Of a stretch of 50,428 nucleotides of DNA, positions 7,561 to 36,026 are shown piece after piece. The translations under genes and the position numbers were made by a program. Numbering within the stretch: position 1 is the first letter of the stretch; each line of letters begins with the position of its first letter. The stretch comes from Planctomycetota bacterium (GTDB lineage Bacteria > Planctomycetota > Phycisphaerae > Phycisphaerales > SM1A02), in NCBI GenBank assembly GCA_003671025.1, contig QWPW01000024.1, forward strand, positions 1 to 50,428, read 5' to 3'. The notes under the pieces are model-generated. The model was given only the letters and a program-made list of their open reading frames with translations, was not told the DNA's origin and ran no database searches.

Positions 7561-8040
7561 TCACCTTTGACCGCGGTCGAGTTCGACAAGTTCGATGTGC
7601 GACTCCGCGAGCAGCATTCGACTCTTCTCGAAACTCTCTTGCCAATGCTCGTCACCACTGCCACTGCGGTAGGTGACGACACGCACGATGCCTGATTGAA
7701 TGATGGACAACGTGCAATGGATGCAGGGGCAGAAACTGGTGTAGATCGTCGCGCCTTGTGGCGACACACCGTTGCGCGCGCATTGAATGATCGAGTTCAT
7801 CTCCGCATGGCAGATGAGTTCGTACTTCGCGGGACGCTCGAGGCGCTCCGGTCGATCTTCGATTCCCCGAGGTAATCCATTGAAGCCTGTGGCAATGATT
7901 TGTTGCGCTGGACTCACGATCACCGCGCCCACTCCGCGCGAAGGATCTTTGCTCCACCGCGCAATCGTGTCAGTGAGTTCGAGGAAGCGAAGGTCCCACT
8001 TGAGTGATGGCGTCGGGTCATCCATGCGCTGAATGTACAC
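7561..8040 (-). CDS. dCMP deaminase family protein (ComEB-like)
   Basis: This 159-residue zinc deaminase carries both family signatures: ICHAEMNSI, with zinc ligand His78 and proton-shuttling Glu80, and CPCIHC, where Cys106 and Cys109 complete the zinc site. The size and the long insert between GFNGLPRGIEDRPERLERP and the HAE motif are as in dCMP deaminases, which make dUMP for dTMP synthesis; ComEB proteins look the same. The start could be ATG 8040 or the internal ATG at 8025 (MDDPTPS). It converges on the dehydrogenase gene. The subtilase gene upstream on the same strand ends only 19 nt before it, so it may be the last gene of the sigma/CHAT operon. Confidence 0.85.
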   Translation of the reverse strand: MYIQRMDDPTPSLKWDLRFLELTDTIARWSKDPSRGVGAVIVSPAQQIIATGFNGLPRGIEDRPERLERPAKYELICHAEMNSIIQCARNGVSPQGATIYTSFCPCIHCTLSIIQSGIVRVVTYRSGSGDEHWQESFEKSRMLLAESHIELVELDRGQR

Positions 8041-8059: not shown

Positions 8060-9535
8060 TCACCAGTTGGAGAGCAAGGTCACGATGTCCGCGGCGTTGA
8101 CGATGCCGTCTGCATTGAGATCGCTGCGCAACGACGGCTCGCACACGCCCCATTGTGAAAGCTGAATGGTGAGATCCGCAGCGTTGACCACGCCGTCAAA
8201 ATTGACGTCACCAACGCGCGGTGCGATGGGCAGCGCCGCAGTCACACCACTGGGCGAAATGCGCGCGCGTCCGAGCATTCCCGCGAACTGAGGATTGAGC
8301 TCATCGATGGACACACCATTCACATCGATGAGGTCCATGACGCGATTGAAAATGCTTGCGTTGGGCGTCTGTGCGTCAGGCCACTGAGGATTCTGGCTGC
8401 GCACCAACGCGACAGTTCCACTCGCAAACGCAGTTGCCATCGAAGTGCCTTGCCAGACCGCGAATCCGCCAGATGGAATCGGGCCGACGACACACTGCGC
8501 AAGATCGGGCACACCATTGATGATGCGTGAAACACCAGGCGCCGCGAGATCCATGTCTATCTCAAAATTGGTGAAGCTCGCCTTGTAATCAGTGCTGTCG
8601 AGTGCAGTGACTCCGCAAGCGTTGGAATCATTCGCGGGATACTCACGCGGATCTTCCACGTCGAAGTTGCCCGCTGCGGCCACGATGATGATGCCGCGCT
8701 GAAGTGCTTCTTGCGCAAGATCCTCAAGCGCGTTGGAGTGATAGGTCTCGCCGAGGCTCATGTTCACCACATGGGCTCCACGATCAATCGACCACGCGAG
8801 CGCCTGCGCGACTTGGAAGTTTCCTGCGCGGCCATCGCTGTCAAGAACACGAACCGGCAAGATCATCGCGTCAGGTGCCACGAGGTGAATGAGTCCCGCG
8901 ATGAAGGTTCCGTGACCGACCTGCTCATCGAAGAAACCATCTCCATCGTTGTCGAGTCCATCGCCGATGTCGGAAAAGCTCGGCGAATTCGCGATGAAAC
9001 TCGCGCCAAGCGGTGAGATCGAGTTTTCAAACACAGGATGCGTTGCATCGATCCCCGTGTCGATCACCGACACCACGACGCCCGCTCCACGCGAACGCCT
9101 ATGCGCAGACTTGAGACCGAGCAAAGGAACTGCGTACTGCGAGTCGTATGCATTCGCATTGATGCCGAGGCCAGACAACCACAAACTGTCGGTCTTTCCT
9201 TCAGCCGTTTGACCTTCGTAATTCAACTCGGCCCACGTGAGCGTGCCTTGTGTCACCAACGCGCCCAACGCGAGATCAAACTGATGTGTGGTTTGCTTGG
9301 GCGCCAATTCGTACGAGAGCAGGTAGATGGGACGATTGGGAATCTGCAGCGCGACCGAGACCGCAGGAAACTGCACGCTCAACGCAGCAATCGTCTGCGC
9401 GAGTGCCGCTGGTGTCGATGCGTTCACAATCGCTTGACCAGCCACGATCGGATCAGGAGGCACGACGCTGCCCGCGCGAGCGGTTGAGAGCATTGCATTC
9501 GCGAGCACGATGGAAATGAAAAAAGTTGCACGCAT
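8060..9535 (-). CDS. Secreted S8 (subtilisin) serine peptidase with dockerin-like C-terminus
   Basis: This 491-residue subtilase has a signal peptide ending near STARA (residue 21) and a propeptide-like segment to about 150. The catalytic residues are Asp159 (VSVIDTGID), His208 (GHGTFIAG), oxyanion Asn290 (AAAGN) and Ser365 (GTSMATA). An acidic DGLDNDGDGFFDE loop at about 192-204 looks like a calcium site. The last ~50 residues carry two D-x-N-x-D-G-x-x-N-x-x-D repeats, the dockerin-like module common in Phycisphaerae exoproteins. The start is ATG 9535, one base overlapping the CHAT stop (TGATG), with AGGAA 7 nt upstream (revcomp of 9543-9547); a longer start at 9571 would lie inside the CHAT gene. 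It should act outside the cytoplasm, unlike its CHAT neighbour. Confidence 0.88.
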   Translation of the reverse strand: MRATFFISIVLANAMLSTARAGSVVPPDPIVAGQAIVNASTPAALAQTIAALSVQFPAVSVALQIPNRPIYLLSYELAPKQTTHQFDLALGALVTQGTLTWAELNYEGQTAEGKTDSLWLSGLGINANAYDSQYAVPLLGLKSAHRRSRGAGVVVSVIDTGIDATHPVFENSISPLGASFIANSPSFSDIGDGLDNDGDGFFDEQVGHGTFIAGLIHLVAPDAMILPVRVLDSDGRAGNFQVAQALAWSIDRGAHVVNMSLGETYHSNALEDLAQEALQRGIIIVAAAGNFDVEDPREYPANDSNACGVTALDSTDYKASFTNFEIDMDLAAPGVSRIINGVPDLAQCVVGPIPSGGFAVWQGTSMATAFASGTVALVRSQNPQWPDAQTPNASIFNRVMDLIDVNGVSIDELNPQFAGMLGRARISPSGVTAALPIAPRVGDVNFDGVVNAADLTIQLSQWGVCEPSLRSDLNADGIVNAADIVTLLSNW

Positions 9536-12117
9536 CAAAGGGTTCCTAACACCACAAACGGCGCCCACCATGCAGGATGCACCGTGTTTTGCCTCGCGGC
9601 AAGCATTGCTTCACGAAGTGCTGCAGATGGTCGCTGCTTGGTCAATAAGCGACGATGAAAATCAGTGGCGATATCGATGGCCACCGCATCGCGCACCGGC
9701 CAGAGCGTTGTGACTACACAGCGTGCTCCTGCGGCGAGAAACGCGCGCGCGATACCAGTGAGTTCTTCTCCTGCATCCACCGCGTGTCGCCCTGTCTCAC
9801 AGCCAGTGAGCACCACAAGATCGGCGTCGAGTTCAAGCTCAAGCAAATCACGCACAGGCATCCACGCGTCCGCGAGTTTGAGTCCAGAGGCCATCGGGAG
9901 TGATGCGATGAACCGACCGTGACACGCGAGATGAATACAACGTCTTGCACGCACCGCACCGCGAACAGAAGCGATCGTGGCCTGCGCGCCCTCAAGCACA
10001 TCGCAGGGCAAGAGTGCTGCAATCTGTTTGATCTCGCGAGAAATCAACGGAGCGTGTTGATCCGCAACTCCGATCACTAACGCGCGGTCAAGAAGCTTTC
10101 GCGCCGAAGTTGGGCGAGGGCGACATGCGATGGAGGCGCTCGGCGCCGTATGAATTTCGAAGCGCTCGATGAGGAAGCGCGTGCCATCAAACAAGGCAGC
10201 GAACGGAAGCGCATGGAGCGTGCCAAACGGAACGACGACGAGGCGCGAAGCCAACGCCACATCGATTCGACTACGCATGATCGGATCGATGACGACGTCG
10301 TACAGCGCACGCGACAGCACTTGAGTTGCACGAGTGTTTCGTGGTGTGGCACCGTCGCGCGCCGTGCTGCGCAACTGAAAGAGGAACTTTTCGATCAGTG
10401 GCGCGAGGTCAGAAGTGTGCGCAATCGCACGCACACACGAGAGCGTGCCGTCATGCGCCACAAACGCAAAGAGTTCATCCCCCGCGGAGAAGTACGCGAG
10501 CAGGGCATCGCCTGATTCGAGCGCATCCACGATGGATTCAGTATCTAGAGGTTGCGCGAACATCGATTGCACACCGCGCGCGTTCTCGTCGCGGGCGACG
10601 AGCAGATCAAGAGACCGCTCATGCTCGCGCATCAACTCAAGCATTTGCGCATGAGTGTGGCGAACACTTTCACGGCGAAGGTCGTTGCTTGGTGAGCCAG
10701 GTTCTGGCTGAGTTGGCGCCTCACGAGCGGCGGATGCGTGCAAAGCCGAGAGTCGAGCACGCAGTCGAGCCAACTCACCATCATCGACCGTGGTGGCGCA
10801 GGTGCGGTCGATCGAGCGAAGCACGGTGTCAAGCAACACACGACTGCGCGCGCGCTCGACGGTGGCGAAGGCCAGCCCAAGACTCGTCGCATCGCCTCGC
10901 GCGAGGAGATCAAGCGCAAGGTTTTCGTAGGGCCGCAAGCATGCCGAGGCGAACGCGCTTCGATGTCGTTGCGCCGCGAGTGTGCCGCGAATGTCTTCTG
11001 CGAGTGACACCGCGTGCGTCAATGACTCGATGCAGTGATCGATGCGACCGAGTGCACGTTCGCAATCCGCTTGCGCGACCGCCGCGTCGATTTCGACAAT
11101 CCGCACACCCAGCGCCTCTGCAGTCGAGCGAGCTGAACGCGCCCGATGAAGCGCGTTCTCTGGATTGTTCATCGCGAGCTGCGCATGTGCCGCGTAAATA
11201 TCAGCACGGGCAATGTCAAGCTCCGAGTCGCCTTCACGCGCGATTGCCGCGTGGAGCAACGCTTGAGATGGGTTTCCTTCGAAGAGCGCAAGTTCGCACG
11301 CGACAAGCGCGGCGGCACGGATGCCGCGTGCGTCGCAACTTTCACGCGCGAGTGTGAGTGCTCGCGCAGCTTCGGGCGTTGCTTCAGCGGCGCGCCCAGC
11401 GGCGATCAATGCACGGGCGCGCACGAGGCATCCACGCACAAGTTCCGCATGCAAGCCCTTGGCGCTCGCGGTGGAGAGCGCCGCATCGGTGGCGACGAGT
11501 GCGTCGGCATGCGCTCCCAACAACAGCAGTGTCTCTGCCTCTTCAAGAAGCAAGCGCGCGTGATGACCCGGGGCGGTAGCGGAGACCAACGACTGTGCTC
11601 GAGCAAACTCGCGCAACGCATCACCGAAGCGACCTTCGCGCGAGAACAGGTCGGCACGATTGCCGATGACCACTGCGTGCGCCAGCGGCAACGGGCGCAG
11701 TAGTTCCTCCGCTCGATCAAACGCAGCCGCGGCGAGTGCCAACGAATCAAGTTGCAACAGTGTTTCACCGAGCGTGTTTTCGATGGTGCCACGCGCGGAA
11801 CTCTCTGACTCCGGGACACCAAGCAACGCGTGATTGAGGCAAGCGATCGCCTCGCGGTGTTCACCGCGCATCTTGTAGACATTGGCCAAATTGAGTTCGG
11901 CGCGCGCGGAGAGATCATCGCGCGAGCGAGCCCGCAAGACATCGCGCGCAGATACTCCACGCAGGATGGCGTCATGAGTGCGTCCAAGTTTCGCTAGCGC
12001 GTGCATTGACGCGATGCCGCTGCGTGCGTGCTCGATCACATCTTGCGCCAGTGTCGCCGCGTTCATTGCATCGTCGGCGCGCGCGAGCGATTCGTTGAGT
12101 CGCCCTTGATATGCCAA
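9535..12117 (-). CDS. TPR-CHAT cysteine peptidase, main part of a gene split by an in-frame TAG
   Basis: About 860 codons encode helical repeats of the TPR type (for example ARAELNLANVYKMRGEHREA) over roughly the first 400 residues, a helical linker, and a C-terminal CHAT domain. CHAT is a caspase/separase-like clan CD cysteine peptidase fold. Both catalytic residues are present: His733 in IHLACHGRF and Cys773 in VVLTGCETG, numbered from codon 12117. It ends in the family-typical WWAPFVVLG. No signal peptide is seen, so it is cytosolic. The frame is open up to a TAG at 12152-12154; the first possible start after it is TTG 12117, which has no Shine-Dalgarno. The missing N-terminus is encoded at 12151-12408. 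If expressed at all, this part would need reinitiation or readthrough. Confidence 0.8.
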   Translation of the reverse strand: MAYQGRLNESLARADDAMNAATLAQDVIEHARSGIASMHALAKLGRTHDAILRGVSARDVLRARSRDDLSARAELNLANVYKMRGEHREAIACLNHALLGVPESESSARGTIENTLGETLLQLDSLALAAAAFDRAEELLRPLPLAHAVVIGNRADLFSREGRFGDALREFARAQSLVSATAPGHHARLLLEEAETLLLLGAHADALVATDAALSTASAKGLHAELVRGCLVRARALIAAGRAAEATPEAARALTLARESCDARGIRAAALVACELALFEGNPSQALLHAAIAREGDSELDIARADIYAAHAQLAMNNPENALHRARSARSTAEALGVRIVEIDAAVAQADCERALGRIDHCIESLTHAVSLAEDIRGTLAAQRHRSAFASACLRPYENLALDLLARGDATSLGLAFATVERARSRVLLDTVLRSIDRTCATTVDDGELARLRARLSALHASAAREAPTQPEPGSPSNDLRRESVRHTHAQMLELMREHERSLDLLVARDENARGVQSMFAQPLDTESIVDALESGDALLAYFSAGDELFAFVAHDGTLSCVRAIAHTSDLAPLIEKFLFQLRSTARDGATPRNTRATQVLSRALYDVVIDPIMRSRIDVALASRLVVVPFGTLHALPFAALFDGTRFLIERFEIHTAPSASIACRPRPTSARKLLDRALVIGVADQHAPLISREIKQIAALLPCDVLEGAQATIASVRGAVRARRCIHLACHGRFIASLPMASGLKLADAWMPVRDLLELELDADLVVLTGCETGRHAVDAGEELTGIARAFLAAGARCVVTTLWPVRDAVAIDIATDFHRRLLTKQRPSAALREAMLAARQNTVHPAWWAPFVVLGTL

Positions 12118-12193
12118 CGCGGGAACAGTCGCACGCAGCGCGCGCGCGAACTAGGCCAACGCGGGAACAGTCGCACGCAGCGCGCGCGCGAAC
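12113..12193. repeat. 39-bp direct duplication inside the CHAT gene
   Basis: Two identical 39-nt copies lie at 12113-12151 and 12155-12193, separated by 3 nt (tag on the plus strand, cta on the minus strand). The offset of 42 nt keeps the reading frame, but the junction reads GCC TAG TTC on the coding strand and so creates a stop. Confidence 0.93.
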
Positions 12194-12408
12194 GCAATCG
12201 GTTCATCAAGCGATGTTGCGGTCTCCGCGATCAGGTCACCAAGCAGTAACGCGCGTGCTGGTTCTCCAGCAGCGAGCCGCTCACAGGCATCACCGAGCGC
12301 AATCAATGTGGCAAGACAGCCACGAGAGTCCTGACGAACTGACGCCACACGATCTTTCGGCGAGTGAGTTTCAAACGTCGCAAGATCGAGCGAAGCATCC
12401 GAGCTCAT
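12151..12408 (-). pseudogene. 5' fragment of the TPR-CHAT gene, ended by TAG
   Basis: This 85-codon fragment begins at ATG 12408, overlapping by 4 nt the stop of the upstream 242-codon gene, which is the normal coupling expected for the true start of the CHAT protein. It encodes TPR-like helices (LIALGDACERLAAGEPARAL) and ends FARALRATVPALA-stop. Immediately after the TAG the same frame repeats FARALRATVPALA and runs on as YQGRLNESLARADD into the main part. With one repeat copy removed, a single protein of about 943 residues results. I read this as a recent disruption or a sequence error, not a separate gene. Confidence 0.7.
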
Positions 12409-13133
12409 CGCGACTCTCGCGCGCGGTCCGGAGGAAGTTCACGCGGAGCGAGTGGCAACACAACCGGAGTGAACGCGCTTCCGTTCACGTCGTATGCGGC
12501 GAACACGACTTCACGAGCGTCATGCGTGAGCGCAATCGCGAACATCCCGAGCGCGTCCGTGTGCGTCCACTGCGCCGAACAGCCTCGCGCGTCGAGCAAC
12601 ATGATGCGTGCGCGCAGTGGGGTGTCATCGCGCGCAACGAGTTCACCCACGAGCCGCGTGATGCCATCCATCGCTGGCGTGCGTTCACAGCGAATGACAA
12701 ATCCCGCCGCATCAGCGGAGACCTCGAGCAGATCAGCGCCGCGGTCGTCACGCAATCCGGCGAACGCGGGTGTGCCATCGGGGCGGAGCCAATCAAGCAC
12801 GATCGCCGCAGCTCGATCGAACAATGTTTCGACAAACGTTGGTAACACCACGCGGTCGCGGTGATCAGCTCGCGCACGCCGCGCGTGTAGTTGCGCACCG
12901 AGCGCCTTCGCCGCCACTAATGCGTTTATCGATGGTTCGTTCAGGTTGTCGCCGCGCATCTCGTCCACGATGCGACTGAACATCGCGAGTTGCCCTGCGA
13001 CGAGCGTGCTTGCGCGCGCAGCGTCGTGCACGCGAGTGATCAACGCTTTGTCGCCATCGCCCGCCGCGACCGCGATGAGATCAACGGTCGTCACGGGGTT
13101 GCGGTCGGGTGGAAGATCAGAAGAGTTGGACAT
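12405..13133 (-). CDS. Conserved-looking hypothetical with C-terminal carboxypeptidase-regulatory-like domain
   Basis: This 242-residue protein lies between the ECF sigma factor and the TPR-CHAT gene. Its first ~125 residues are predicted helical (LITRVHDAARASTLVAGQL, INALVAAKALGAQLHARR) without a transmembrane segment or zinc motif. The last ~80 residues look like a small beta-sandwich of the carboxypeptidase regulatory type: GELVARDDTPLRARIMLLD, then TDALGMFAIAL. The position directly after the sigma gene and the helical start fit an anti-sigma factor or an adaptor for the CHAT protein, but that is inference. Its stop overlaps the CHAT ATG by 4 nt. Confidence 0.65.
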   Translation of the reverse strand: MSNSSDLPPDRNPVTTVDLIAVAAGDGDKALITRVHDAARASTLVAGQLAMFSRIVDEMRGDNLNEPSINALVAAKALGAQLHARRARADHRDRVVLPTFVETLFDRAAAIVLDWLRPDGTPAFAGLRDDRGADLLEVSADAAGFVIRCERTPAMDGITRLVGELVARDDTPLRARIMLLDARGCSAQWTHTDALGMFAIALTHDAREVVFAAYDVNGSAFTPVVLPLAPRELPPDRARESR

Positions 13134-13258
13134 GACGGATGTGTCGCGCGAAACAGGTGGCGTGTCGTGACGCCTTCGGAGGAAGCAGAGGGATCTTCAA
13201 GGGTCGCAGATACAACAATCTCAAGTCATAGGTCGAATGCGCGATCCAGCGCGCAGAC

Positions 13259-13930
13259 TCACTCGGGGTCGCTCGCATCAAACGGCGCGTCACGGTCCGC
13301 AAAGCGCGCTTGCGCCTCGGCCGGCAAGCTTGGGCCGAATCCGAGGCGACGTAATTGGAGTGCAAGTTTTTCAAGGCAGCGTGCGCGAGTTGGACCGATA
13401 GATCCGACGCGAATGTCCAATCGTTGCGAGATGAGCGCATAGTTTGGATCGCTTCCTGCACCAAACAACGCCTCGAGCAGCGCGCGACACTTGCCACCGA
13501 GTCGCTCGAGGCCGAGTCGAACCAATTGCCGCTCGAGCAACTGTTCAGTTTCCGCACTCTCCGCGTCGCCATGACTGGCGTGTTGATCAACGTGTTCGGT
13601 CGCGCGAGGGTCATCGCTGATTCGTGAGTCAAGCGAGTGCATGTTGCGCTCGTCGCGGCGAAGTCGAGCGGTGGCGCGCCAACACGCACGCTTGGTGGTC
13701 ACTACCAACCAACTCGCAAGTCCATCCTCATCGCGGATTGAATCAATGTGCTCAATTAGCGCTGTAAATACCTGCTGAAAGACATCCTCAGCGTCTCCGT
13801 CGCGCATCCGTTGCTTGAGAATCACCGACCAAACGAGACGTCGATAGCGATCAACCAGCGTGTCCCACGCCGCGCTGTCACCAGCGCGACATCGCTCAAA
13901 GAGACGAAGATCACCATCATTCGAAGCCAT
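13259..13930 (-). CDS. ECF-type RNA polymerase sigma factor (CHAT operon)
   Basis: This sigma-70 family factor of the extracytoplasmic-function class is 223 residues long from ATG 13930. Region 2 reads AWDTLVDRYRRLVWSVIL and EDVFQQVFTALIEH, and region 4 ends with the helix-turn-helix VGSIGPTRARCLEKL. It should direct transcription of its own operon: a 242-codon hypothetical, the TPR-CHAT gene and the subtilase. The acidic linker with several His residues between the two regions is longer than usual. The frame is open to TTG 14005, but that would leave only 9 nt to the divergent sulfotransferase; ATG 13930 leaves 84 nt for promoters. The VGSIGPTR helix is, from memory, seen in sigma factors beside CHAT and protease genes in other phyla. 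Confidence 0.82.
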   Translation of the reverse strand: MASNDGDLRLFERCRAGDSAAWDTLVDRYRRLVWSVILKQRMRDGDAEDVFQQVFTALIEHIDSIRDEDGLASWLVVTTKRACWRATARLRRDERNMHSLDSRISDDPRATEHVDQHASHGDAESAETEQLLERQLVRLGLERLGGKCRALLEALFGAGSDPNYALISQRLDIRVGSIGPTRARCLEKLALQLRRLGFGPSLPAEAQARFADRDAPFDASDPE

Positions 13931-14014
13931 CGCGAGCGCAGTGTACGCAGGCAATCTCCACGGACCAACAGGCAACACACGCGAACCAGACTCATCGGAT
14001 ATCAATGATCAACG

Positions 14015-14870: not shown

Positions 14871-15506
14871 ATGGACATGAGCGATCGCTTGAACGACGAC
14901 TGTTCCGATCTCGCAGCGCTTGACGCGAACGACCAGGATGCAGGCAGACGGCTCTATGACCGACACGCCGCCGTGATCTTCGCGCTTTGCCGCGAAGAAA
15001 CTGGCTTGCGCGCTCGGCAAGACGCAGAGGACGCGGTGCAGGAATCATTCCTACGCGCGTTCCGCATGCGAGACCGTTTGACCGATTGCACCGGGTTTCG
15101 CCCGTGGCTCTATGCGATCGCTCGGCTCGTGTGCAAAGAGCGCCGCACTTCTCGCGGACGAGAACGCCGCGACATCGCCTACGGACTCGACGCCTCTCGC
15201 GAGGCTTCACGTGCAGGAACTCCACGCATGCCTCCACAAATGGCTCAAGAAATGATCGCGAAACAAAGCGATGCCGCACCATCGGCGCCCTTGGAACATC
15301 GCGAAAACATGACACGACTGGGATGCGCCATCGACGCGCTACCCGAAGACGTGCGACTCGCCCTCCACATTTTTTACATCGAACAAGACCCCGTGACGGT
15401 CGCGAAACGCGTGCTGGGAATTTCCCGCGCGCAGTTCTATCGACTGGTCACGCAAGCACGCGAACTCATTGCAGCGCAACTCAAGCGCGAGGACTTTCAA
15501 CTATGA
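14871..15506 (+). CDS. ECF-type RNA polymerase sigma factor (VIT/VWA operon)
   Basis: This second ECF sigma factor is 211 residues long. Region 2 reads AGRRLYDRHAAVIFALC and QDAEDAVQESFLRAFRM, and region 4 reads LPEDVRLALHIFYIEQDPV with a recognition helix in LGISRAQFYRLVTQARE. ATG 14871 is chosen over an upstream in-frame ATG at 14778, because family similarity starts after it; ATG 14877 is also possible. Its TGA overlaps the ATG of the VIT/VWA gene (ATGA at 15503-15506), which implies coupled translation and suggests that the membrane protein downstream acts on this sigma factor. Confidence 0.85.
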   Translation: MDMSDRLNDDCSDLAALDANDQDAGRRLYDRHAAVIFALCREETGLRARQDAEDAVQESFLRAFRMRDRLTDCTGFRPWLYAIARLVCKERRTSRGRERRDIAYGLDASREASRAGTPRMPPQMAQEMIAKQSDAAPSAPLEHRENMTRLGCAIDALPEDVRLALHIFYIEQDPVTVAKRVLGISRAQFYRLVTQARELIAAQLKREDFQL

Positions 15507-18500
15507 CCGACTCCAATCACACCAACCACTCTGATGATGGAAAGCCCGTGACGGGCGATCGCCTCGACGGACTGTTGCGCAGTTGGCATGACGAAAACAA
15601 AGTCGCGGCGCACGAGAGTCAGGGCGGCGTGCTCCGCGCCGCTGAGCGCGAGGCGTTGCTGGGAACGGCAGACGAATCAAACACTGGTCTGCAGAACATC
15701 GTGGCGCGCATCGGCTTCTTGCGTCTCGCTTCGATGGCGGCGCTCTTGGTGTGTGCATTCACGCTCATCGCGTTGTTCATGAAAAACACCGAGAAAAAGG
15801 CTTTCGCAGAAGGCGGAATGGTGCAAGTGGCCGAAGGCGGAGCGCTCGACGCGCTCGACGACGACGGCAACACACTTGGTCCGTGCCCACTGCAACACAC
15901 TGATGTGAAGGTCGAGATCAGCGGACTCTTCGCGCGCACAGTCGTCGAGCAAACCTACGCCAACCCGTATCCGCGCACGATCGAAGCGGTCTACACCTTT
16001 CCACTTTCCAATCGCGCCGCTGTTGATCGCATGACCATGATTGTCCGCAGCGGCAGCGGCGAGAAGGTGATCGAAGGCGAAGTGAAAGAACGCGCCTTGG
16101 CGCGCGCGATGTACGAAGAAGCACGCGAGTCGGGATACGTCGCGAGTCTGCTCGAGCAAGAGCGGCCCAACATCTTCACGCAATCCGTGGCCAACATCGA
16201 GCCCGGCGCCACTGTGAAAGTTCGCATCGCCACCATCGAGTTGGCGACACGCAAGAACGGCTTGGCGACGTATGCCTTCCCCATGGTGGTTGGTCCGCGC
16301 TACATCCCCGGCGCACCCGCTTCGATGCCGACGCTTCCCGAAGGTTGGGAAGTTCGTCAGGGTGTAGTGTTGCGCGCGCCGGCTGGAGTTGAGCTCGCGA
16401 CAGAAGCAGTGTTCTCTGCGACGCGCATGACTGATCTCTTGGAGCGTGCAACACCAGTGCGCGCTGCGAAGAACGAGACCATCGATCAGGTGCTCTCGAT
16501 GGGCGAGGGAATTTCCTTCACTGCGAATTACGGCAACGGAAGCGCCGAGCGCGGCGTGTATTTTGCGGCGGTTGGAATCGGCCAGTTGAACGGCCGATTT
16601 TTCTTTTCCCCATTGGGCAAAGATCAAGGCACGGGTTTTTCGGGTGACACCACCCAAGTCCCCGATGCTTCACGCATCACACCGATGCCCACCAAACCTA
16701 GCGAACGCGCGGGCCACGACATCTCGCTCACAGTCACAATCGATAGTGGTGGACCTTCCATCACCGGCATCATCAGTTCCTTGCACGACGTCAACATCGA
16801 TGAGACATCACGAACGACGCGCGTGATCACACTCAGCGACATGAAGACGATTCCAAATCGCGACTTCATCGTGCACTGGTCTGTGGGACAGAACGACATC
16901 GAGCCCGCGTTCTTCGCGCACGTGAATGACTCGGCAGATGCTTCCGTCAAAGGTGGTTACTTCGCGCTGCTCGTCGAACCGCCTACGCGGGTTGCTCCCA
17001 CCGCGATTCGTCCGCGCGAACTCATCTTCGTGCTCGACGTCTCCGGCTCGATGGATGGTTTCCCCATCGAGAAGTCGAAAGCGTTGGCGCGCAAGGCCAT
17101 CGCGGCGATGCGCGCGACCGACACCTTTAACTTCATCACCTTTGCCGGCGCGACCAGTGTGTTGTGGAGTGAACCACGCATGGCGAGCGACGAGAATCGC
17201 AAGCTCGCGGATGACTTCGTCAACGGCGCGTACGGCGCTGGTGGCACAGAGATGATGACCGCGATCAATGCGGCGCTGATTCAAGATGGTCGCAGCGGAC
17301 TCGCGCCTGCGAAGTTGCTTGATCTCCCAGCCGATGGTCGTCAGGTGCGCGTGGCTGTGCCTCACAACGCGTTGGTTGCGGCGACGAGTGGTTCTTCGAT
17401 GGTCATGAATGCAGGCGTGGGCAGCGATGGCGTTGCGCGGGTGATTCCGGTTGACCTCGCCGTTGCGATTCCCGCGAATCCAAAAGGTCTCGCGCTCTTG
17501 GTCGATGGCACGTGGGAGACGCGTGACGGAAACCGCATCTTTGCGGCCAAATCAGCGAAGTTTGAAGAGGCTGACGCACGCACGCGATTTGTGTTGTTCT
17601 TGACCGACGGCTACATCGGGAATGACCAAGCGGTTGTGCAAGCGGTGCGCGACAACGCGCGCGCGAGTCGAGTGATGAGCTTCGGCATCGGCAACTCAGT
17701 GAATCGTTTCTTGCTCGAAGAGATGGCGCGCGCTGGTCGCGGCACCTGTGAAGTGGTGACGCTGAGCGAAGACGCCGATGCTGTGATCGATCGTTTAGTG
17801 CGTCACATCGATTCGCCCGTGCTCACCGATATCGAATTGGATATTCCAGATGGACTGGGCATGCGCGCACTGCTTCCTGCGGGCGATCACTTGCCCGACC
17901 TCTTCGATCAAGAGCCCATCGTGTTGCTCGGTCGATTTGATCGCGCCAACAGCGGAGTGATCACTGTGCGTGGACGCACCGGCGCGGGCGCGTGGGAGAG
18001 AGAAATTCGCGTCGATCTTCCTGCGCAAGAAAGCAAACACGATGTCGTGCCCACACTGTGGGCGCGTGCGCAAGTAGATGAATTGTTGTTGCCCAAGTTG
18101 GCAGCGGTGGAGTCAGAGACGCTCGATCTTCCCACCAAGCGCGCAGTGATTCGTCTCGGTGAGTCCTTCCACATTGCGACGCCATACACCAGCTTCATTG
18201 CAGTCGAGAAGAGTCGCGTCACCGTCGGTGGCAAGGCGATGTTGGTGAGCGTGCCGGTTGAACTTCCCGATGGAACGAACTGGGCGTGCTTCTTCGGCGA
18301 GGGCGTGCGGCCGTATGACGCGATCATCGCGGAGTCGCGTCGCAGTGGCGCGCGTGACATCACGCGAGCAGAGTCCAGCGAAGCGCTGCGCAGTTACGCA
18401 GAGTCCTTCGTTGTCGAAGCGGTGAAGTTTGGCGTTGTGGACTTAGACGTTGAGCAAGGTGAAGCAGAGAATCTCGGCGAGACGTTTGAACTCAGCGACT

Positions 18501-19585
18501 ACCGCACGCGGCAACCAATCGTGCAGTCGGGGAGCAACGTTGCAGTCGCGCCAAGTGCGGGCACTTCGACTGCGCTTCCACCAACGAGTTCACCACCACC
18601 GATTGCATCAGCCCCACCAGGCGCGTTGGCACCACCCAATGCGGCCAGTGCAAGCGTCAACGAAGCAGGAAAACGCACGCAAACACAAGGACGGCGAGAA
18701 GATTCGCAACTGCAGCCACCAGGCCGTGGCGCGCGCCGCGAGACCATTGATTCCGGCAGTGGCATCGCGCTCGGTGGTGGTGGAGGCGGCGGGTTCGCGA
18801 AGGGTCCTGCACCAACGCCCCCCGCGAATAGTCCCGCGGGCGTCATCGGAGATTTCTCTACAGCAGCGCGACCAGGTGGCGGCCTCGGTGGAAGCGGTGG
18901 GGCGATCGGTCCAGGAGGTGGCGCCAACAATCGCGGCCTCGATCGTGGCAAGATTGGTGAGAGTGCCGAGAAAGCAGCGACATTCTATGGACGCGCTAGT
19001 GGTCTCGGCGGCGGCACTTCCGCAGGTGAAACAGGGGGCAAGAAACAGGACGCGAAAGAAGGGTTGGACAAGTCGAAGTTAAGTTCCGGCGACGAAGCAC
19101 GCGATAGCGCGCGCGAACCATCAGCGCGTCAAGGCGAAACCATCGTCGATCAGTTGGGCACGACGGGCGCGAACGACGGTGCGATTGAAGTCACAGCAGC
19201 CTCGACAACCAAACCCGCGCTCACCGCAGGAAATCGTGATCGACTGGTGCGTGTAGTCGAGCGTCGATTGGTGTTGGTCGCACTCGCCGCGCTCATGGGA
19301 AATCAAGCGGTTATCCCGAGTTTGATCGAGGAATTTGCACTGCCTGCGCAGGGAAGCGGCGCGACGATTTCGGTGCGCGTGGCCATCAAAGTGACCACGG
19401 ATGCCAATGGCGCGATCGACGTGAAGTTGCTCGATTCGTTGCGCGCACTCGGCGTCACCATTGATGGCGAAGACGCCTCGCGTGGCCTCGTGGTGGCGAA
19501 CATGCCGCCGCAAGCAATCATCCGCAGCGCACTTCTTGCGGGAGTTTCCCGCATCGAACCGCTGGCCGGCTCGATCGCCGAATAG
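15503..19585 (+). CDS. Single-pass membrane protein with VIT and VWA domains
   Basis: This 1360-residue protein has about 70 cytoplasmic residues, one transmembrane helix (about 74-93, LASMAALLVCAFTLIALFM), a VIT domain (about 126-265; VEQTYANPYPRTIEAVYTFP) and a VWA domain. The MIDAS motif is D512-V-S-G-S. The strand FVLFLTDGYIG and the late motif TPYTSFIAVEKS place it with inter-alpha-trypsin-inhibitor-like bacterial proteins. About 95 residues (17290-17580) interrupt the VWA core. After residue ~1010 comes a low-complexity Pro/Gly/Ala/Ser region, then a folded-looking C-terminal ~110 residues. GAGGA at 15489-15493 supports ATG 15503. The short cytoplasmic N-terminus next to an overlapping sigma gene suggests, by inference, a fused anti-sigma and sensor. 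Binding partners are unknown. Confidence 0.83.
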   Translation: MTDSNHTNHSDDGKPVTGDRLDGLLRSWHDENKVAAHESQGGVLRAAEREALLGTADESNTGLQNIVARIGFLRLASMAALLVCAFTLIALFMKNTEKKAFAEGGMVQVAEGGALDALDDDGNTLGPCPLQHTDVKVEISGLFARTVVEQTYANPYPRTIEAVYTFPLSNRAAVDRMTMIVRSGSGEKVIEGEVKERALARAMYEEARESGYVASLLEQERPNIFTQSVANIEPGATVKVRIATIELATRKNGLATYAFPMVVGPRYIPGAPASMPTLPEGWEVRQGVVLRAPAGVELATEAVFSATRMTDLLERATPVRAAKNETIDQVLSMGEGISFTANYGNGSAERGVYFAAVGIGQLNGRFFFSPLGKDQGTGFSGDTTQVPDASRITPMPTKPSERAGHDISLTVTIDSGGPSITGIISSLHDVNIDETSRTTRVITLSDMKTIPNRDFIVHWSVGQNDIEPAFFAHVNDSADASVKGGYFALLVEPPTRVAPTAIRPRELIFVLDVSGSMDGFPIEKSKALARKAIAAMRATDTFNFITFAGATSVLWSEPRMASDENRKLADDFVNGAYGAGGTEMMTAINAALIQDGRSGLAPAKLLDLPADGRQVRVAVPHNALVAATSGSSMVMNAGVGSDGVARVIPVDLAVAIPANPKGLALLVDGTWETRDGNRIFAAKSAKFEEADARTRFVLFLTDGYIGNDQAVVQAVRDNARASRVMSFGIGNSVNRFLLEEMARAGRGTCEVVTLSEDADAVIDRLVRHIDSPVLTDIELDIPDGLGMRALLPAGDHLPDLFDQEPIVLLGRFDRANSGVITVRGRTGAGAWEREIRVDLPAQESKHDVVPTLWARAQVDELLLPKLAAVESETLDLPTKRAVIRLGESFHIATPYTSFIAVEKSRVTVGGKAMLVSVPVELPDGTNWACFFGEGVRPYDAIIAESRRSGARDITRAESSEALRSYAESFVVEAVKFGVVDLDVEQGEAENLGETFELSDYRTRQPIVQSGSNVAVAPSAGTSTALPPTSSPPPIASAPPGALAPPNAASASVNEAGKRTQTQGRREDSQLQPPGRGARRETIDSGSGIALGGGGGGGFAKGPAPTPPANSPAGVIGDFSTAARPGGGLGGSGGAIGPGGGANNRGLDRGKIGESAEKAATFYGRASGLGGGTSAGETGGKKQDAKEGLDKSKLSSGDEARDSAREPSARQGETIVDQLGTTGANDGAIEVTAASTTKPALTAGNRDRLVRVVERRLVLVALAALMGNQAVIPSLIEEFALPAQGSGATISVRVAIKVTTDANGAIDVKLLDSLRALGVTIDGEDASRGLVVANMPPQAIIRSALLAGVSRIEPLAGSIAE

Positions 19586-35944: not shown

Positions 35945-36026
35945 TCAGCGCGGCGTAGCGCGGGTCATTCTTTAGCGCGGCGTCGCGCGGATCATTCTTT
36001 AGCGCGGCGTCGCGCGGATCATTCCC
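35945..36026 (-). repeat. 27-bp tandem repeat carrying in-frame stops at a kinase 3' end
   Basis: Three copies of a 27-nt unit begin at 35948, 35975 and 36002 (plus-strand order). The first differs by two bases and the third ends in a variant. Read on the minus strand in the kinase frame, the copies give MIRATPR-stop, RMIRATPR-stop and RMTRATPR-stop, with stops TAA, TAA and TGA. Confidence 0.9.

Follow-up and report, generated by a model that had tools for sequence, protein, structure and literature searches.

A conserved cassette of ECF-type sigma factor, anti-sigma-like protein, TPR-CHAT protease and subtilase in three bacterial phyla, probably a protease-operated gene switch

The window, i.e. 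the whole stretch of 50,428 nucleotides analysed here, comes from a bacterium of the Planctomycetota and carries on its minus strand four adjacent genes. The first codes for an ECF-type sigma factor of 223 residues (13259-13930) that passes the ECF/sigma-70 profile (TIGR02937, 71.5 bits against a cut-off of 42.9, E 6e-20) and matches Sigma70_r2 (E 1.7e-10). The second codes for a 242-residue, anti-sigma-like protein (12405-13133) that AF2 models and homologues divide into a helical N-terminal domain, a linker and a C-terminal beta-sandwich. The third gene codes for a TPR-CHAT protein and is found in two parts, an N-terminal part of 85 codons that can be aligned to the N-terminal sequences of genus relatives and ends with an in-frame TAG (12151-12408), and a remainder of 860 codons (9535-12117) whose CHAT domain exceeds the gathering score (PF12770, 194.1 bits against 24, E 4.5e-57). 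The last gene codes for an S8 subtilase of 491 residues (8060-9535; PF00082, E 4.2e-42) with a hydrophobic, signal-like N-terminus and a C-terminal dockerin-type repeat (8075-8212; PF00404, 24.8 bits against a cut-off of 22.9). The GC-type dockerin model NF041540 gives 17.5 bits on the same C-terminus, below its cut-off of 29. The catalytic residues listed in a preliminary description of this DNA were confirmed, Asp159, His208, Asn290 and Ser365 of the subtilase exactly as given, and His733 and Cys773 of the CHAT domain on the 860-residue frame opening at TTG 12117, so that the latter numbering starts past the stop. The overlapping junctions said to tie the last three genes together are both there, one of 4 nt (ATGA, 12405-12408) and one of 1 nt (TGATG, 9535), but the former belongs to the 85-codon frame. 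An intact operon with a single intact CHAT gene could not be upheld, the CHAT frame being broken by the TAG at 12151-12153.

The word TACACT (13940-13945, minus strand) lies 9 nt before the ATG at 13930 and is found again near the gene start in genus relatives. This upstream conservation supports ATG 13930 as the start of the sigma gene. Counts of k-mers upstream of 61 sigma genes returned GC-rich words together with TACACT. It was present before 13 of the 150 genes tested, a count that is not independent since these 13 come from two families only (8 sigma genes and 5 copies of a gene of about 860 residues). Of 292 gene starts in 400 kb of the same genome, 48 are preceded at 4-12 nt by the form TAnnnT, against 6, 14 and 12 in three shifted intervals, TACACT being the most frequent of its variants (9 starts against 0, 1 and 2). 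Because of this enrichment before gene starts, the -10-like element looks like a promoter of the general leaderless type, from which the operon may be transcribed. A word proper to ECF promoters before the sigma gene was considered and rejected, TACACT being a general element in this genome.

The frame that overlaps the stop of the 242-residue gene reopens 11 codons after the TAG. A tandem duplication of 42 bp (12113-12193; TRF: 1.9 copies, 100% match) creates this stop, which lies between its two copies; 38 bp of it recur exactly around a minus-strand CTAG. This tetramer is rare in the genome, with 163 occurrences in 450 kb for about 1619 expected from base composition. The relatives that were compared across the duplication site have a single copy and no stop, and the comparison of codon positions with three relatives reveals on both sides of the stop the order of selected coding sequence, the second position differing least and the third most. 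As the relatives are uninterrupted and both halves look selected, the lesion is a recent mutation or an assembly error. Whether the CHAT gene of the window is a pseudogene or mis-assembled, in which case the cassette of the window alone would say nothing on function, is in our view evenly balanced. The stop was produced by a tandem duplication, and other near-tandem repeats are present in the same assembly (in 450 kb, mostly of short period, but including an exact tandem of 44 bp and a few repeats with periods of 113-123), whereas the selected codon pattern on either side and an 860-codon remainder free of further stops argue against such a reading. When this remainder was used as a query, no internal stop was found in any match row from 53 genomes.

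A lack of conservation of the gene order elsewhere, which the preliminary description had named as an objection to its own proposal, did not materialise: the order extends far beyond close relatives. A search of 181 genomes of the window's family with the CHAT protein gave a match at E <= 0.001 in 53, including 14 of the 16 genomes of the window's genus (window genome counted), and 60 regions were then taken. Upstream sequence of 1.3 kb or more is available for 50 of the 57 family loci with a CHAT match; the small protein is encoded in 49 of these and a same-strand sigma gene in 49 as well. Where at least 1.1 kb is available downstream, a subtilase follows in 48 of 52 loci. The order sigma factor, protein of about 210 residues, TPR-CHAT and subtilase is complete in 41 of the 45 family loci with room on both sides; these family counts are partly circular, since the profiles of the small protein, sigma factor and subtilase were trained on neighbours from the family set. 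In the four incomplete loci the subtilase was not found (L070, L074) or the CHAT is partial or distant (L105, L106). The independent test is provided by Chloroflexota and Acidobacteriota, on which the profiles were not trained. Among their 16 loci, where room permits, small protein and sigma gene occur in 13 of 13, the subtilase in 13 of 14 and all four genes in 10 of 11; the subtilase is absent from locus L147. Eight further Planctomycetota loci gave 6 of 7 for the small protein, 6 of 7 for the sigma gene, 6 of 6 for the subtilase and 5 of 5 for the whole set. A scan of named genomes with a 16-row CHAT alignment returned 47 loci, of which 23 are contigs already in the family set and were dropped from the counts of gene order, of helices and zinc motif and of the linker. 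These contigs were recognised by their equal length, with a difference of 100 bases in one case, and five of them are still among the subtilase rows described below. No relative was obtained when the window CHAT was used as a single-protein query against genome contigs. Gene starts are those of a simple in-house gene caller.

The four genes have also a correlated history. Pairwise protein distances correlate in all five gene pairs tested over 40 loci (Mantel r 0.70-0.88, none of 999 permutations as high), the set consisting of loci with all four genes called and chosen by length filters and name. Over the window and a further 400 kb of its genome (450 kb in all), this locus is the only match of the small-protein profile. 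Three more matches of the sigma profile were obtained there, all weak (30-52 bits), and ten more of the subtilase profile (30-61 bits), some of which are perhaps due to the shared dockerin part. The cassette is thus real and conserved across three phyla, Planctomycetota, Chloroflexota and Acidobacteriota. Separately, the genes that follow the subtilase gene recur in most genus relatives where there is room, namely one of 152-159 residues and then one of about 850-910 residues on the opposite strand.

Wider searches with CHAT at E <= 1e-60 gave matches in 32 of 251 genomes of an even draw from the phylum of Chloroploca and in 35 of 343 Planctomycetota. The closest of these wider relatives retain the gene set and the more distant ones vary. 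Loci L221, L222 and L224 consist of a gene of 225-248 residues, a small protein whose zinc motif is intact, the CHAT gene and a gene for a subtilase of 635-649 residues. Their first gene is sigma-like by position, with profile scores that are weak at most, and a Pfam scan of two such proteins returned no match, so that it can only be termed a putative sigma gene; at L223 the sigma gene was not called. In distant Planctomycetota (L193, L194, L197, L198) the subtilase is kept, with neither sigma gene nor small protein detected upstream. Larger regions of three loci of this kind (L229, L233, L234) have weak small-protein matches downstream of the subtilase, and at L236 and L239 the subtilase is positioned before the sigma gene. 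The gene set was absent among the annotated genes of three plasmid CHAT regions from Streptomyces, Caballeronia and Nostoc, and among the in-house gene calls of a Nonomuraea region.

The two proteases are well preserved in their catalytic residues. All 41 aligned sequences, that of the window among them, have the His-Cys dyad of CHAT as well as W806 and D810. The D-H-N-S residues of the subtilase are present in 79 of 85 distinct proteins (84 of 90 rows, with five repeat contigs); of the six remaining, five are truncated and one has D-H-D-S. By a simple measure of hydrophobicity, the subtilase N-terminus is hydrophobic in many copies, and the same measure gives no obvious signal at the start of those of L221-L225. 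The branch to which the window belongs has the signal-like N-terminus, which a Chloroflexota branch lacks. A dockerin-type repeat ends most family subtilases, as judged by eye. The best NCBIfam model for the window's enzyme is the mycosin TIGR03921, whose cut-off of 278.75 bits is not reached (143.7 bits).

The second gene had been described as coding for a beta-sandwich protein. This holds for the C-terminal half; the N-terminal 90 residues or so are helical. The AF2 model built from 38 sequences (mean pLDDT 80.9) places four helices up to residue 89, a helix at 98-114 and eight strands from residue 134, and its C-terminal half matches MG1/Ig-like domains (4zjg, Z 10.7, 79 residues, 1.5 A). 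The window copy itself has no match in Pfam or NCBIfam, anti-sigma families included, and HX3CX2C zinc ligands were looked for in it and are absent. Among its homologues, zf-HC2 scores above its cut-off in two of ten (L145, L146) and in three of five more distant ones (L221, L222, L228). The NCBIfam antisigma model NF052375 reaches E <= 0.001 in six of ten homologues, at best 1e-10 and always below its own cut-off, and weak profile matches to ChrR, RsrA and RsiW were also obtained. The HX3CX2C motif occurs in 4 of 70 near loci (L134, L145, L146 and L147, all outside Planctomycetota) and, among 20 distant loci, in six labelled copies plus one unlabelled neighbour. Some small proteins have a weak similarity to CarboxypepD_reg, in all cases below the cut-off. 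When the N-terminal model was compared with the PDB, six of nine matched chains came from anti-sigma complexes (SigE-ChrR, AlgU-MucA), at E 4-9. The four-helix model reaches at best a weak Z of 4.4, to chain 2z2s_D of the ChrR complex (58 residues, 3.4 A), besides a value of 4.3. The chains of these ChrR and MucA complexes were taken by length as the anti-sigma factors. Judged from its homologues, the 242-residue protein thus reads as anti-sigma-like, having apparently lost the zinc site in the Planctomycetota branch, and the lack of the motif places it outside the zinc-anti-sigma class. Of the sensor, adaptor and anti-sigma roles earlier offered for it, the last is favoured by the zf-HC2 and HX3CX2C homologues, though the window copy has neither the ligands nor a family match.

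The best conserved residue of the small protein after Met1 is Arg128, found in 73 of 74 homologues within a pattern of the type A-x-A-G-hydrophobic-R-G/S/D. It is the last residue of the linker segment 120-128 (12750-12776, minus strand), for which the AF2 model gives a pLDDT below 50. As a conserved residue of a poorly ordered stretch that joins two domains, Arg128 is a candidate cut or docking site. In separase the P1 arginine is read by D2151, which corresponds to K670 in one Craspase (PMC9729208). The position expected for such an Arg-reading pocket in CHAT, W+8 (I814 in an ungapped alignment), is not conserved, and the case for a P1 arginine would therefore be made by linker conservation only.

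Together with the gene order, the correlated history, the catalytic residues and the zinc motif of distant members, this conserved linker suggests that a gene switch operated by a protease is the probable function of the four genes. While the cell is at rest, the protein of about 210 residues would keep the ECF sigma factor bound by means of its anti-sigma-like N-terminal helices, with its beta-sandwich beside, or bound to, the TPR-CHAT protease. Either the TPR repeats or the beta-sandwich would presumably sense a signal that activates CHAT, which would cleave the small protein in the inter-domain linker, possibly just after Arg128. The released sigma factor would then transcribe a putative regulon. 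The subtilase may be a co-produced executor or perform a second processing step. The whole model, from a conserved cassette to CHAT cutting the anti-sigma-like protein and the sigma factor being freed, has in our estimate an equal chance of being right or wrong. Points that count against it are the homologues in which the first helices go unmatched, the lack of zinc ligands and of a family match in the window protein, the low Z values, the unconserved Arg-reading position, the variable cut sites of Craspase, the distant loci that depart from the gene order and the stop in the window's CHAT gene. The narrower proposal of a CRISPR-free switch present in at least Planctomycetota, Chloroflexota and Acidobacteriota, in which TPR-CHAT cuts a soluble anti-sigma-like protein precisely at the conserved linker arginine to free an ECF sigma factor, is put forward tentatively, with somewhat more doubt than belief.

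The helices of the small protein are the point on which two other readings turn. They are matched in 53 of 70 homologues; in the 17 others, three of them in the window's genus, the profile match begins past the first helices, and G087, which was not flagged, is also short by eye. In five of the 17 the open frame extends 25-207 residues upstream, so that their N-terminus has possibly diverged rather than been lost. The beta-sandwich and linker are retained even where the helices go unmatched, which would fit a sensor or adaptor of CHAT that keeps the helices as a remnant, the sigma factor only transcribing the operon or its neighbours. The MG1/Ig-like fold of the C-terminal half and the small-protein-like genes found after the subtilase with no sigma gene seen (L229, L233, L234) point the same way. 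Nevertheless, a sigma gene lies upstream of the 17 shortened versions as well, and most homologues have matched helices, which makes this reading unlikely. The same 17 proteins can be cited for a cassette devoid of any anti-sigma factor, in which CHAT, the subtilase or both degrade the sigma factor directly, as was proposed for ECF54 (PMC8999054). We regard this as distinctly unlikely, because a clear zinc anti-sigma domain is encoded upstream of CHAT in distant members and because many subtilases, with their signal-like N-terminus, would not meet a cytosolic sigma factor. Least probable is a cell-death or anti-phage system whose toxic effectors, CHAT and the subtilase, would be freed by the switch: CHAT proteases do have a part in type III-E CRISPR and a link to gasdermins (PMC10028731, PMC9729208), and PADLOC matched CHAT weakly to BovA and the subtilase to a generic entry (E 3.9e-21), but at E <= 0.1 it had no match for the sigma factor or the small protein, a scan of viral sequences in IMG/VR returned no relative, and the downstream neighbours shared by most genus relatives with room, like the correlated distances of the four genes, are unlike a shuffled defence island.

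The protease-operated switch proposed here has its closest parallels in two known systems. In type III-E CRISPR, the TPR-CHAT protease Csx29 cleaves Csx30, the inhibitor of CASP-sigma (PMC10028731), and a stable Csx30-RpoE complex was reported (PMC9729208). Both systems comprise a TPR-CHAT protease with a homologous CHAT domain, a separate inhibitor of an ECF sigma factor, putative in our case, and an adjacent sigma gene. They differ in several respects. The window CHAT scores 43.5 bits on the Csx29 model, whose cut-off is 300, and Csx30 was not named among the 13 PDB matches (E <= 10) of the small-protein profile. RAMP (PF03787) and Cas1 (PF01867) had no match in the window's genome, which is 95.9% complete, the controls being positive. 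The cassette also adds a subtilase, and its linker arginine is conserved whereas Craspase cut sites are reported not to be (PMC11106740).

By gene context, the cassette resembles ECF54, in which an ECF sigma factor is associated with conserved subtilase and CHAT genes. ECF54 belongs to Actinobacteria and, in PMC8999054, which cites Casas-Pastor 2021 and Huang 2015, its context is given as carboxypeptidase, subtilase and CHAT genes; it is described there without an anti-sigma factor and proteolytic control is proposed. In the cassette, by contrast, a small protein with weak similarity to carboxypeptidase-regulatory-like domains has an anti-sigma-like N-terminus. The ECF54 'carboxypeptidase' may then be the beta-sandwich of this same small protein, in which case the review statement that ECF54 lacks an anti-sigma factor may need to be changed. 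The earlier suggestion of an undescribed system has accordingly to be narrowed: the context is partly known from ECF54, as far as that source goes, while a search of open-licence literature, a corpus outside which the primary ECF54 papers fall, gave nothing on the anti-sigma-like nature of the small protein, on its linker or on the presence of the cassette in these phyla.

The individual proteins also have known counterparts. Like the zinc anti-sigma factors of the zf-HC2 type (ChrR, RsrA, RsiW), the small protein is encoded directly after the sigma gene and has HX3CX2C in several homologues; unlike them, it has no ligands in the window and in nearly all Planctomycetota copies seen, and it carries a C-terminal Ig/MG1-like sandwich. 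The subtilase has D-H-N-S and a signal-like N-terminus in common with S8 subtilases, its own features being the dockerin-type C-terminus and the tie to CHAT. With the cassette, concrete candidates for both substrate and output become available for TPR-CHAT proteases that are not part of CRISPR. If the model is true, it would be a simple, RNA-independent counterpart of Craspase, with a cut site open to a one-residue test. Overall, it would represent a stand-alone form of the protease, anti-sigma and sigma logic of type III-E systems, with the subtilase as a fourth part.

The hexamer TACACT that lies 9 nt upstream of the start codon of the cassette ECF sigma gene (13940-13945) belongs to a pattern recurring across the window's genome. 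In 400 kb of that genome, a TAnnnT element was found 4-12 nt upstream of the start codon of 48 out of 292 genes, compared with 6-14 genes when the search windows were shifted, and TACACT was its commonest form. The element also precedes 30 of the 150 genes considered at the loci of the genus. The pattern is that of a leaderless-type promoter.

On the distal side of the cassette, the gene next after the subtilase (7561-8040) codes for a deaminase (PF00383, E 1.7e-21). Many genus relatives carry a gene for a protein of 152-159 residues in the same position. On the strand opposite to the cassette, a second sigma gene (Sigma70_r2) is directly followed by a gene coding for a 1360-residue VIT/VWA-domain protein (14871-19585 for the pair). 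Farther away, a protein-kinase gene ending in a tandem repeat of 2.9 copies of 27 bp (35947-36024) adjoins another protein-kinase gene.

A diverged second copy of the cassette is present in some genus relatives (loci L062, L063, L064 and L067; genomes G078, G076, G081 and G077), being the sole copy found in G078. Two consecutive subtilase genes occur in L063 and L064. Like the window's CHAT gene, the distant CHAT matches L187 and L210 are each interrupted by a single internal stop in their assemblies. Three cassette-bearing public MAG records (L111, L113, L114) are titled Candidatus Kuenenia or Limnohabitans. These titles appear to be wrong, since the contigs are, judged by their length, the same ones as in genomes of the window's genus.
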